Under the pieces are notes generated by a model. It was not told where the DNA came from and searched no databases. It saw only the letters and a list, made by a program, of their open reading frames with translations. This document shows positions 4,816 to 25,019 of a stretch of 64,000 nt of DNA, in pieces; position 1 is the stretch's first letter; every line of letters starts with the position of its first letter. A program made the translations under genes and the position numbers. The stretch covers positions 62,001 to 126,000 of the forward strand of contig NZ_WOSV01000003.1 in the NCBI RefSeq assembly GCF_011516655.1. Reading direction: 5' to 3'. This DNA comes from Acetobacter thailandicus (lineage in GTDB: Bacteria; Pseudomonadota; Alphaproteobacteria; Acetobacterales; Acetobacteraceae).

Positions 4816-6306
4816 ATGAAGTTTCGCACAGGCCTGATGCTCGGTGCCACGTTTCTCACGGGCCTTGCCGTAACCTCTCCCTCCGGTTTATTCCATGCAG
4901 GCAGTAACAACTTCCTGCAATCCGCTTTCGCCGCACCTGCTTCTGACACTGCGACAGAGCAACACCCACAGGCTAAAGCAGCTGACGATTCACCCACAAA
5001 AAATCATGCCGAAACCTACCGCCTGCTAACTCTGTTTGGCACGGTCATGGACCTTGTCCGCTCTGATTACGTTGAACCTGTTTCAGATAAAGATCTGATT
5101 ACTAACGCCCTTAACGGTGCCCTGTCCGGTCTGGACCCTCACAGCTCATACATGACTGAAAAACAGTATGATGACATGATGACCCAGATGAAAGGAGAGT
5201 TTGGCGGCCTGGGCCTGGAGCTGCAGCAGCAGGACGGACATATTCGCGTTGTCTCTCCCATTGACGGCACCCCTGGTTTTCGTGCCGGTGTTAAATCTGG
5301 TGACTATATTATTGCTGTTGATGGTCGCCCGGTTGATGGCGTACCTCTGGATGAAGCCGTCAAAAAAATGCGCGGCAAACCCAACACGAAAATTAGCCTG
5401 ACGCTTGTCAGAGCTAAGACACCCAAACCTATTATTCTGACGCTGACCCGCGAAAATATTCATATTGATGTCGTGAAATCAGCTCTTTATGGCCGCATAG
5501 GGTATATCCGCATCGCTCAGTTCAATGAAGAAACTGAAAAAGCTCTTGTCAGTGCGTACGACAAACTGAAACGCGATGCAGGAGGGAAACTGGCTGGCCT
5601 GGTTATCGACCTTCGAAACAATCCCGGGGGGCTGCTTGACCAGGCAATTAAAGTCTCCTCCAGCTTTATCCGATCAGGTGCTATCGTTTCGACACGCGCC
5701 CGCAACCCTAAAGACAGCCAGTTGTGGAATGCTCATGGCGAAGACATGACCAACGGTATGCCTATCGTCGTGCTGATTAATGGTGGCTCTGCCTCAGCAT
5801 CTGAAATTGTCTCAGGCGCGTTGCAGGACCACGGCCGCGCTGTGGTGATGGGAACCCGCTCTTTTGGTAAGGGTTCTGTTCAGTCCATCATTCCGATTCC
5901 TGGAAATGGTGCAATCCGCCTGACAACCGCACGCTATTACACGCCGTCAGGCCGCTCAATTCAGGCAAAAGGCATTACACCTGATATCGTTGTAAAAGAA
6001 ACCCGCGAAGACCCGGGCTTTAGCATGCATGAAGCTGACCTGGAGCACATCCTTAAAAACCAGGGTGGTAACCAGACCAAGCGCCAGCCTCGCAATGACC
6101 TTCCCTCCGTTGCCAAAGATATTCCTGGTGAACCACCAGCAAACTGGCCGGAATTTGACTACACGAAACCAGAGACTGATTTTCAGCTGCAGGAAGCTCT
6201 GAGGGTTGTTAAATTTATGGCAAACCTGCCAGCACCTGACCCGGTTGCTTCTCTCCCCCCGGTAAAAACTGACGCCAAAAAAAGCGAAATTAAGAAAAAA
6301 CCCTGA
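4816..6306 (+). CDS. ctpA: S41 carboxy-terminal processing protease (CtpA/Prc type)
   Basis: The 496-residue periplasmic serine protease trims C-termini of exported proteins. An N-terminal signal/anchor segment (FRTGLMLGATFLTGLAV) is followed by a helical region, a PDZ domain at about 125-200 (GLGLELQQ...GVKSGDYIIAVDG), and the S41 core. The likely catalytic pair is S327 in GSASASE and K352 in FGKGSVQ. Their spacing of 25, with Q356 four residues after the lysine, matches characterised CtpB/D1P enzymes. The C-terminal tail is Lys/Pro-rich. The ATG at 4816 is preceded by AGGAGA and gives a proper signal peptide; an open TTG 24 codons upstream does not. The 179-base gap after the envC-like gene may hold a promoter, but I could not define one. 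Confidence 0.92.
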   Translation: MKFRTGLMLGATFLTGLAVTSPSGLFHAGSNNFLQSAFAAPASDTATEQHPQAKAADDSPTKNHAETYRLLTLFGTVMDLVRSDYVEPVSDKDLITNALNGALSGLDPHSSYMTEKQYDDMMTQMKGEFGGLGLELQQQDGHIRVVSPIDGTPGFRAGVKSGDYIIAVDGRPVDGVPLDEAVKKMRGKPNTKISLTLVRAKTPKPIILTLTRENIHIDVVKSALYGRIGYIRIAQFNEETEKALVSAYDKLKRDAGGKLAGLVIDLRNNPGGLLDQAIKVSSSFIRSGAIVSTRARNPKDSQLWNAHGEDMTNGMPIVVLINGGSASASEIVSGALQDHGRAVVMGTRSFGKGSVQSIIPIPGNGAIRLTTARYYTPSGRSIQAKGITPDIVVKETREDPGFSMHEADLEHILKNQGGNQTKRQPRNDLPSVAKDIPGEPPANWPEFDYTKPETDFQLQEALRVVKFMANLPAPDPVASLPPVKTDAKKSEIKKKP

Positions 6307-6327
6307 TTTATCAGAGGAATAAAGAGC

Positions 6328-7449
6328 ATGACGATAACATCCCACTGGCAACAAATGCCTTCCTCCGGACGTATGTTTGTCCGTTTCTGGGGGGGATGTT
6401 TCGTATTGACCGGTATTCTTGTCATCAGCCTTCAGGTCATGGGCCCTCCCCGGCTGGACGGGGATGATATTGATGTCGCCTCTTCTAACCTCAATCCTGG
6501 CTCCCGCAATGTTATTCCGGCCCCCTTACCTGAACTGCAGGAAAAACACCGGGGTCCGAATGGCTTTCCTCTTCCCAAAAAAGACGCAAAGGGACGCACA
6601 CCACGCCTTGCTTATGCCTCTCCTACTGTTGAGGTCCCGCCGGGTAATGCTGAAGTCGCTCTTGTTATTACCGGCATAGGGGATGCCAGAAACCTGACAA
6701 ATGAAGCTATGGCTTCTCTGCCGGCACCGGTCACATTTGCTGTTTCGCCTTATGCTCCTGAAATGAAAAAATTGCTCGAGCAGGCACGTCTTAACAACCA
6801 CGAGACACTTCTTGCCCTCCCTGTTCAGCAGGATTCAAAATATGATCCGTCTGCCGGAGAAGATGTGACAGGCTCTTATGCGCTTGGCCCTGGCCTCTCT
6901 CCGGAGGAAAATCTCCAGAATTATAAATGGGCTCTTTCCAGCCTCAGTGGCTTTATTGGTGTCACAAACGGCTTCCCCGGTTCCGGCACTGAAAGCTACA
7001 CCCTTTCCAATGCCTTCTCACCCATTCTTAAAGATATTGACGACCGCGGTCTGATTTATCTGAATGCCACGCCTGAAACCACACCCAGAACAAACGGCCC
7101 TGGCGGCACAGTAGACGTCAACATCAATACAGATACTGACATTATTAAAATTGACATTCAGCTGCTCAAGCTCCAGCAGGCAGCCCGCCGCAACCATAGT
7201 GCCATCGGGATTATTGGGCCGCTGCGGCCGGTTGCTCTGGCCTGCCTGAGAGCATGGATCCCTCACCTGGAAGATGTCGGCATTACCCTTGTGCCTCTTA
7301 GCATGCTTGCCAAAACCCCTGATATTAAGGCAACAGCATCTGACGCCGGAGCCAATACTCAGGACGCATTACCACATAAAACAATCTTTCATATTGACCT
7401 GAATAACCACATGCAGCCAGCCGACAGTGCTCAGTCACCTCAGCCTTAA
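6328..7449 (+). CDS. Divergent polysaccharide deacetylase family protein (YibQ-like)
   Basis: The 373-residue protein has one N-terminal hydrophobic segment (about 12-36) that anchors it in, or exports it across, the inner membrane. A Pro/Lys-rich linker then leads to a domain typical of the divergent polysaccharide deacetylase family: ALVITGIGDARN, PAPVTFAVSPYAPEM, HETLLALPVQ, GLIYLNATPETTP and GIIGPLRPVALACL. The family has the barrel fold of NodB enzymes but mostly lacks their metal-binding triad, so activity is not established. The first motif here reads ALVITGIG, where many relatives have an acidic residue (VIxDxG). The start has AGAGGAATA upstream. It sits between ctpA and rppH, an order common in alphaproteobacteria. 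Confidence 0.85.
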   Translation: MTITSHWQQMPSSGRMFVRFWGGCFVLTGILVISLQVMGPPRLDGDDIDVASSNLNPGSRNVIPAPLPELQEKHRGPNGFPLPKKDAKGRTPRLAYASPTVEVPPGNAEVALVITGIGDARNLTNEAMASLPAPVTFAVSPYAPEMKKLLEQARLNNHETLLALPVQQDSKYDPSAGEDVTGSYALGPGLSPEENLQNYKWALSSLSGFIGVTNGFPGSGTESYTLSNAFSPILKDIDDRGLIYLNATPETTPRTNGPGGTVDVNINTDTDIIKIDIQLLKLQQAARRNHSAIGIIGPLRPVALACLRAWIPHLEDVGITLVPLSMLAKTPDIKATASDAGANTQDALPHKTIFHIDLNNHMQPADSAQSPQP

Positions 7450-22711: not shown

Positions 22712-24486
<1,775 letters not shown>

Positions 24487-24492
24487 CAGTCA

Positions 24493-24527
24493 TGGTACGA
24501 CTCGATGTTATTTCACGAGTCGTACCA
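24493..24527. promoter_or_regulatory. Stem-loop 1 of the GANTC cluster
   Basis: A perfect 12-base inverted repeat (TGGTACGACTCG at 24493-24504, CGAGTCGTACCA at 24516-24527) has an 11-base loop. Each arm carries a GANTC site (24499-24503 and 24517-24521). It ends six bases before the annotated rnhB ATG, so in RNA it would sit next to the start codon. TTGCTT-N17-TACGAC on the minus strand would place a -10 box in the upstream arm; that promoter is only a suggestion. Confidence 0.6.
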
Positions 24528-24581
24528 ATCGCGACTCCGTAAAGCAAGGAGAATCACTTTTTGCGACTCAGGGCAAGAGTC
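24499..24581. promoter_or_regulatory. Cluster of six GANTC methylation sites upstream of rnhB-ccrM
   Basis: GANTC occurs at 24499, 24517, 24533, 24551, 24565 and 24577. By chance about one would be expected per 256 bases. Five of the six share the longer core CGACTC/GAGTCG. In Caulobacter the ccrM promoter contains GANTC sites and responds to its own methylation. The cluster here is denser and sits before rnhB, the first gene of the pair. It is the likely control region of the operon. Confidence 0.65.
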
Positions 24582-24583
24582 GC
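24563..24583. promoter_or_regulatory. Stem-loop 2 of the GANTC cluster
   Basis: GCGACTC (24563-24569) and GAGTCGC (24577-24583) are perfect inverted repeats around a 7-base loop, each containing one GANTC. No T-tract follows on either strand, so a terminator is unlikely. Together with stem-loop 1 it forms a symmetrical arrangement around GANTC sites 3 and 4. Confidence 0.5.
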
Positions 24584-24587
24584 ATCA

Positions 24588-24611
24588 AAAAAAAGTTCAG
24601 GAACTTTTTTT
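24588..24611. terminator. Bidirectional hairpin terminator overlapping the CsbD-like gene end
   Basis: AAAAAAAGTTC and GAACTTTTTTT form a perfect 11-base inverted repeat around AG. It has A and T tracts on both sides. The last codons and the stop of the CsbD-like gene (24597) are encoded within it, so termination would happen right at the end of the coding region. It would also separate that gene from rnhB-ccrM. Confidence 0.65.
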
Positions 24612-24902
24612 ACGCGGGAAAATCAGCCAGCTCAGAATAAGAGCAACACCTGAGACAATCCCCAGAGAAAGAAGAGGTTTATCACGCACAAAAGTTGTGG
24701 CTTTTTCTACAAACCCTTCACCTTCTTCATAAAGATCGGCAAAGTCCTGACGTGCGCCACCGGCAAACTGGTCAAACTTACCCTCAGCCTGAAGACCAAT
24801 ATCACCTGTCAGACCACCAACCGCATCCTTAGCGCGACCTTTAGCTTCCGTAGCCAGTCCTTCAACTTTATTCGCTACGACTTTAAGTTTATCATCAGCC
24901 AT
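24597..24902 (-). CDS. CsbD-like protein with C-terminal membrane anchor
   Basis: The 101-residue protein combines a CsbD-type N-terminal region (NKVEGLATEAKGRAKDAVGG, LTGDIGLQAEGKFDQFAGGA) with a C-terminal hydrophobic helix and short basic tail (LSLGIVSGVALILSWLIF, then PRKKSS), as in YqjD/ElaB proteins that tether ribosomes or other partners to the inner membrane. CsbD proteins are general-stress proteins of unknown activity. GGAG lies about ten bases before the ATG. It diverges from the DHA2 exporter gene. A smaller relative of the YqjD type occurs at 36455-36682. Stress-related expression is an inference from the family. Confidence 0.75.
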   Translation of the reverse strand: MADDKLKVVANKVEGLATEAKGRAKDAVGGLTGDIGLQAEGKFDQFAGGARQDFADLYEEGEGFVEKATTFVRDKPLLSLGIVSGVALILSWLIFPRKKSS

Positions 24903-25019
24903 CTGGATTTTTCTCCATTCTGTGGTTAACGACCATCAGCATACACTTAAATTTTATTAATACCACATATTGAATCCACTCTTTTTCTACCAATACCCTA
25001 CACGAGTTCATGATTAATT

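Follow-up and report, generated by a model that had tools for sequence, protein, structure and literature searches.

Introduction

CcrM methylates GANTC. To our knowledge, it is poorly understood how bacteria other than Caulobacter restrict CcrM to a brief period of the cell cycle. The Caulobacter ccrM promoter contains GANTC and is transcribed only from hemimethylated DNA, as stated in the available parts of a modelling paper (PMC2217572) and a review (PMC10073500); all papers below are likewise cited for the parts of their text available to us. GANTC located between the -35 and -10 elements has been linked with timing (PMC4287350). In E. meliloti a promoter that contains GANTC need not be under cell-cycle control (PMC8725594), and Brilli 2010 (PMC2877005) counted GANTC in the promoters of cell-cycle genes, with 37 genomes in the CtrA analysis, and stated that control was not derivable from the count. 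Our literature search, by titles and the beginnings of abstracts and mostly outside subscription journals, returned nothing on a class-wide ccrM array or an rnhB leader dyad, and nothing on rnhB together with ccrM. Methylation control of ccrM has already been described in Caulobacter, and what appears to be new here is the class-wide density of the sites and the leader of the clade.

We describe an array of GANTC sites in front of rnhB-ccrM in a 64-kb stretch of DNA, referred to in its full length as the window. The array is conserved in place as GANTC in the Acetobacter/Gluconobacter clade, and GANTC is enriched upstream of ccrM across the Alphaproteobacteria. An earlier note on this DNA had proposed a methylation-controlled switch of CcrM; what stands of it is a methylation-linked cis element at ccrM, supported by conservation, density and class-wide enrichment. 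From these sequence comparisons we consider it likely that the region is the promoter and 5' leader of rnhB-ccrM, and that the methylation state of its CcrM sites sets its activity as a feedback in cis.

Results

A GANTC array in front of rnhB and ccrM

By letter count in the window, six GANTC sites fall within 83 bp (24499-24581) just 5' of rnhB-ccrM (Table 1). Five of them share CGACTC/GAGTCG as their core and the remaining one reads GAATC, a recount that agrees with the earlier note. Four of the six lie within two perfect inverted repeats, for which arms of 12 and 7 bp had been given; the first length is correct and the second is 8 bp. The methylase encoded is of the CcrM type, with a match to the solved CcrM 6pbd at E 2.3e-148. 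The ORF finder places the rnhB start at 24486, which is probably incorrect, and the ATG at 24471 is the better candidate, being conserved in 34 aligned relatives and preceded by a stretch that resembles a ribosome-binding site. On the other side of the array, an A/T-rich 11-bp inverted repeat (24588-24611) lies at the end of the CsbD-like gene; it has a minus-strand T run and is possibly the terminator of that gene.

Table 1. Features of the rnhB-ccrM upstream region, in window coordinates and in the order of transcription. Columns are those of the 34-row clade alignment.
Feature	Position	Strand	Remarks
CsbD-like gene	24902-24597	-	precedes the array, then rnhB, ccrM
Promoter inverted repeat	24562..24584	-	8-bp arms 24562-24569 and 24577-24584, 100%, flanking the -35-like element
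GANTC site 1	24577..24581	-	abuts 5' end of -35-like TTGC; columns 10-14
Putative -35-like element TTGCCC	24571..24576	-	TTGC invariant 34/34; columns 15-20
GANTC	24565..24569	-	right arm (as transcribed) of promoter inverted repeat; columns 22-26; not conserved
Putative -10-like T-rich block GATTCTCC	24548..24555	-	conserved; columns 36-43
GANTC (GATTC as transcribed)	24551..24555	-	within the T-rich -10-like block; columns 36-40
Leader GANTC	24533..24537	-	columns 54-58; GA-TC invariant
Leader inverted repeat	24493..24527	-	12-bp arms 24516-24527 and 24493-24504, 100%; 11-nt loop
GANTC, leader dyad left arm (as transcribed)	24517..24521	-	CGACTCG invariant 34/34; columns 69-75
GANTC, leader dyad right arm	24499..24503	-	CGAGTC invariant 34/34; columns 87-92
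Putative ribosome-binding site, purine-rich	24474..24484	-	5' of the conserved ATG
rnhB (RNase HII)	23842..24471	-	start revised from 24486
ccrM (N6_N4_Mtase and RAMA domains)	22712..23845	-	4-base overlap with end of rnhB

Density of the array against the GANTC background

GANTC is scarce in the window, with 86 occurrences against 230 expected from dinucleotide shuffles, a 2.7-fold depletion; GANTC depletion has been reported for Alphaproteobacteria (PMC3973325). We sampled 464 kb of the 2.8-Mb genome (17%), made up of the window and 20 stretches of 20 kb and containing 627 GANTC. The array is the sole place in this sample with at least five sites per 100 bp, and one other place has four, so that the genome-wide count of GANTC density suggested in the earlier note leaves the array unmatched in the sampled 17%. 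The runner-up (L156:6002-6096, four GANTC in 95 bases) lies inside an ORF, 5659..6450, that appears ClpP-like by eye.

A Poisson model at the mean GANTC rate predicts 9e-6 clusters of this kind per 64 kb; were the rate fourfold everywhere, it would predict about one per genome, and because of this second figure we regard conservation as stronger evidence than density. The same figure is what speaks for chance or compositional clustering. Such an origin, or one from a dispersed repeat, is nevertheless extremely improbable, given that the sites are invariant in relatives, that the genome has one full copy only, and that none of the other 15 palindromic 5-mers is enriched upstream of ccrM more than 2-fold. 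A REP-like dispersed repeat was rejected on the matches within this genome, where the full-length copy is found only at the array itself; the other matches are a 35-bp inverted self-match and four of 14-24 bp (E 0.5 or worse).

Conservation of four sites in the clade

We surveyed our genome and 36 relatives of the same genus for CcrM homologues and the DNA upstream of them. All four conserved GANTC occupy the same places in 33 of these 37 genomes, and the four-site array is absent from the remaining four (G012, G016, G020 and G031) despite their having CcrM. The 33 regions and that of Acetobacter fallax (L035) form an alignment of 34 rows. The four sites, through their G, A, T and C, account for 16 of its 30 invariant columns. 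Site 1 has GA-TC in 34/34 rows and reads GACTC in 32 and GAGTC in two, the leader site at 24533 reads GAGTC in 28 and GAATC in six, and both arms of the leader dyad have a fixed middle base. The two window sites not common to the clade are those at 24565 and 24551, the latter being GANTC in 8 of 34 rows (L001-L008). Comparison with related genomes, which the earlier note had also suggested, thus upholds four sites by position and not these two. Most relatives also lack a promoter repeat in which each arm bears GANTC.

The alignment excludes the regions without the four-site array (L022, L111, L115 and L116), L034 (Gluconobacter morbifer), in which GANTC is retained but rearranged, and L037 with the other Acetobacteraceae-like named loci (L033, L036, L038-L045); L033 and L036-L045 have at most two GANTC per 100 bp. 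Two named Acetobacter records, L031 and L032, are also outside it and both show the array. L111:686-808 (G031) has retained a -35-like TTGCGC block and lost every GANTC upstream of rnhB, and L022:640-900 (G020) has retained a 10-bp leader hairpin before rnhB-ccrM and lost the leader GANTC sites. L173 and L174, from another genus of the same family, have one GANTC in common, located in a TTTGCGACTCGTTGAGTAT block ahead of rnhB; this block, about 690 bp before ccrM, may be a one-site version of the promoter.

Constancy of GA-TC together with variation of the middle base would be expected under selection for a methylatable site. The invariant middle base of both dyad arms would also suit the binding site of some other repressor or activator, its recognition sequence happening to be CGACTCG; the inverted repeat with its 18-bp spacing suits a dimer, and MucR, which covers GANTC sites in Caulobacter (PMC5172544), is encoded in our genome. 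We regard this explanation as improbable, since the third leader site and the sites found across the class vary in the middle base and keep GA-TC, which a single protein site does not predict.

Layout of the presumed promoter and leader

The order in the clade appears to be site 1, TTGC as the -35 element, T-rich block, leader GANTC, dyad, ribosome-binding site and ATG of rnhB, and in the clade alignment the T-rich stretch at columns 38-43 stands 17 bases further along than the -35 element. A consensus promoter scan of the region found no promoter, and the candidate -10 is weak. The promoter consensus of Gluconobacter is lax, ttGnnn and nAtnnn (PMC5756330); the candidate -35 fits it and the candidate -10 fits it poorly.

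Two structural candidates were rejected. Neither perfect repeat can be taken for an intrinsic terminator, as no T run follows the stem on the transcribed strand, and the match of the terminator scan at 24551-24569 is a different stem. The promoter inverted repeat is weak as a general structure, with 68% of cells paired against up to 57% in a slid version, and it was not found in several lineages.

Enrichment of GANTC upstream of ccrM across the class

The best 80 of the named loci were kept, and 79 of them extend 300 bp or more upstream of ccrM. For 51 of these 79, a single 100-bp interval was denser in GANTC than any other in the entire stretch and fell within those 300 bp. We framed a promoter-like motif, TTGAC-N2..4-GANTC-N4..6-GANTC, after viewing part of the named loci; it is found upstream of ccrM in 41 of the 79, its defining set, and nowhere else in 1.03 Mb on both strands. 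The shorter TTGAC-GANTC form is found upstream of ccrM in 51 of the 79 and elsewhere five times. At the loci with the motif, the GANTC pair lies between and over the presumed -35 and -10.

CcrM was present at E <=1e-100 in 109 of 153 genomes of the class. With our genome and ten genomes listed earlier excluded, 80 of 98 were taken, of which 78 were usable. The 300 bp upstream of ccrM contain on average 3.5 GANTC in these 78 genomes, where the remainder of each stretch predicts 0.54; the number exceeds the genome's own background in 66, and 11 have no site. Three or more sites are present in 53 of the 78 (range 3 to 8), and the density of our array, which had been thought to go beyond analogy, is consequently less unusual than the earlier note supposed. 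The motif stands upstream of ccrM in 20 of the 78 and nowhere else in 418 kb. Loci of one genus are related, and the class counts are to be read as counts of non-independent events; the sample is partly dependent in a further way, L187 being from the same genome as named locus L097 and two more being near relatives. Removal of these three loci gave 3.49 against 0.54, with 63 of 75 above background, 51 having three or more sites and 11 none, and the motif upstream of ccrM in 19 of 75 and nowhere else.

In the same stretches, the GANTC frequency of noncoding DNA is 27.3 per kb upstream of ccrM and 2.08 per kb elsewhere; in coding DNA, defined as ORFs of 150 aa or more, it is 1.98. When all 16 palindromic 5-mers whose middle base is free were compared over 154 loci, GANTC was enriched 7.2-fold and the next, AANTT, 2.0-fold; over 151 loci the values were 7.2-fold and 1.9-fold. 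At the first core site, the middle position is A in 22, G in 11, C in six and T in two of the 41 motif loci, and G in eight, C in seven, T in three and A in two of the 20 further ones.

In some of the 11 genomes free of GANTC, transcription may start in front of an operon gene that precedes ccrM. Two loci of one genus, L249 and L251 (G177 and G067), have CcrM, lack GANTC in the 2.5 kb before ccrM and are without a GcrA match; this interval is also free of GANTC in L191, but its genome has GcrA.

The leader dyad as RNA or DNA structure

In the 34-row alignment, 86.9% of the leader dyad cells are paired, against 27-40% when the arms are slid, and 42 cells are changed on both sides compared with 18.8 in shuffles. 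Mismatches on the sense strand are G-T in 35 cells and A-C in 9, an excess that points to RNA, and the RNA fold of 24480-24610 has a z of -6.25. These values, like the 10-bp hairpin that L022 retains without GANTC, favour an RNA leader element, that is, a hairpin that stabilises the mRNA or gates translation and in which GANTC is incidental. By the two measures that the covariation program rates least inflated by relatedness, covariation does not exceed the shuffles: six pairs are changed on both sides against 5.2 (199 of 500 shuffles as high), and further pair types number 18 against 17.4 (236 of 500 as high); slid versions give 2-4 and 5-13, respectively, both below the true register. The RNAalifold covariation term is small (-0.52), and an Rfam search of 24300-25000 gave no match at E up to 1, hence no known RNA family. 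Furthermore, the six core pairs never vary while the outer pairs do, which indicates that more than pairing constrains the sequence; the dyad contains just two of the four conserved sites, and of the other two, one precedes the presumed start; and L034 has GANTC where no dyad is visible by eye. An RNA element with incidental GANTC is thus, in our estimate, a poor candidate for the array as a whole.

The contrast between L022 and L034 makes the constraints on hairpin and GANTC look separable, and the clade dyad CGACTCG...CGAGTCG may act as an mRNA hairpin in addition to bearing methylation sites. Among the structures named in the earlier note, RNA folding keeps some ground, the dyad being somewhat more like a hairpin of the sense RNA with mixed statistics; nothing favours a DNA cruciform, though the single-strand DNA fold is also stable (z -7.3).

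Candidate regulators

A regulator that we take, by its signature, to be CtrA-like is present in our genome, and a domain search of the genome for SciP (PF06627, DUF1153) found none. A CtrA-controlled promoter of the Caulobacter kind was rejected for lack of TTAA-N7-TTAA in the 34 aligned rows. Across the class, three or more GANTC stand upstream of ccrM at 102 of 154 loci, as against full TTAA-N7-TTAA sites at four (3/151 after pruning). Our genome lacks GANTC both in the 300 bp in front of gcrA and in the 500 bp in front of ctrA, and the sole GANTC in the 500 bp upstream of its ftsZ, at about -500, is inside the preceding gene; among the few Caulobacter-type targets examined, ccrM therefore stands out.

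GcrA (PF07750) is encoded in our genome at G000:C1:272647-273240 and in 36 of 36 same-genus relatives searched. An extended GcrA motif, YGAKTCG, is attributed to Haakonsen 2015 in PMC7987155, and three of the six window sites match it, compared with 59 of 541 GANTC in 400 kb of the genome. Both observations would fit a GcrA-sigma70 promoter, in which GcrA binds methylated CGAGTCG and recruits RNA polymerase, so that methylation would activate rnhB-ccrM in a positive loop. We hold this to be possible but rather unlikely. Array density is not associated with GcrA over the 78 class genomes, three or more sites being found in 43 of 61 GcrA-positive and 10 of 17 GcrA-negative genomes (Fisher p 0.39, in a presence/absence test by which a divergent GcrA could be missed), and GcrA as an obligatory reader is accordingly unsupported. 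Two of the three YGAKTCG matches belong to the leader dyad and are thereby downstream of where the core promoter is presumed to be, G012, G016, G020 and G031 have GcrA and no array, and the available part of PMC7987155 reports no extended motif in B. subvibrioides.

Discussion

If the array is a methylation-linked element in cis, its sites would be methylated by CcrM, the passage of the replication fork would leave them hemimethylated and allow rnhB-ccrM to be expressed, and newly made CcrM would restore full methylation, upon which expression would fall again. That the hemimethylated state is the active one and the fully methylated state the less active one is suggested by analogy with Caulobacter ccrM, and we give this direction a slight preference. 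The array could be read by RNA polymerase itself, by CcrM occupying its own sites, or by GcrA where present. In the clade, the dyad would add, as an mRNA hairpin before the ribosome-binding site, a second and separable layer. Self-control by CcrM is the most likely function, but its simplest models fit poorly with a density that does not track GcrA, with the absence of CtrA sites here, and with the four of 37 same-genus genomes without the array. A bolder proposal, which we put forward only tentatively, is that of an ancestral self-switch of GANTC sites shared by the class, working without GcrA or CtrA and read by RNA polymerase or CcrM, with the bases of the clade doubly coded as GANTC in DNA and as a hairpin in the leader RNA.

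Should the array be a switch, few targets of methylation by CcrM would be as widely retained as the ccrM promoter, and acetic acid bacteria would possess a compact feedback element. The motif TTGAC-GANTC-N6-GANTC could be used to find promoters of this kind.

Among described systems, the array resembles the ccrM promoter of Caulobacter crescentus in having GANTC sites in front of the same gene. That promoter has two GANTC (PMC10073500), whereas the array has six; it is activated by CtrA, whose TTAA-N7-TTAA occurs here in 0/34 rows; and no counterpart of the leader dyad is described for it in the available parts of PMC2217572 and PMC10073500. The core CGACTC is shared with the Caulobacter ftsZ and mipZ promoters, where it is needed for activity and for activation by CcrM (PMC3708114); these have one conserved motif each, and ftsZ is most active when fully methylated. 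Agrobacterium repABC-Ch2 also has several GANTC, three of them in the promoter, and some mutations of them alter activity (PMC11514494), but it controls a replicon and not ccrM. The GATC clusters of E. coli oriC and the dnaA promoter are likewise dense targets of an orphan methylase with a timed hemimethylated state (PMC10073500); in contrast to the array, they belong to another methylase, are read by SeqA and do not stand upstream of the methylase gene.
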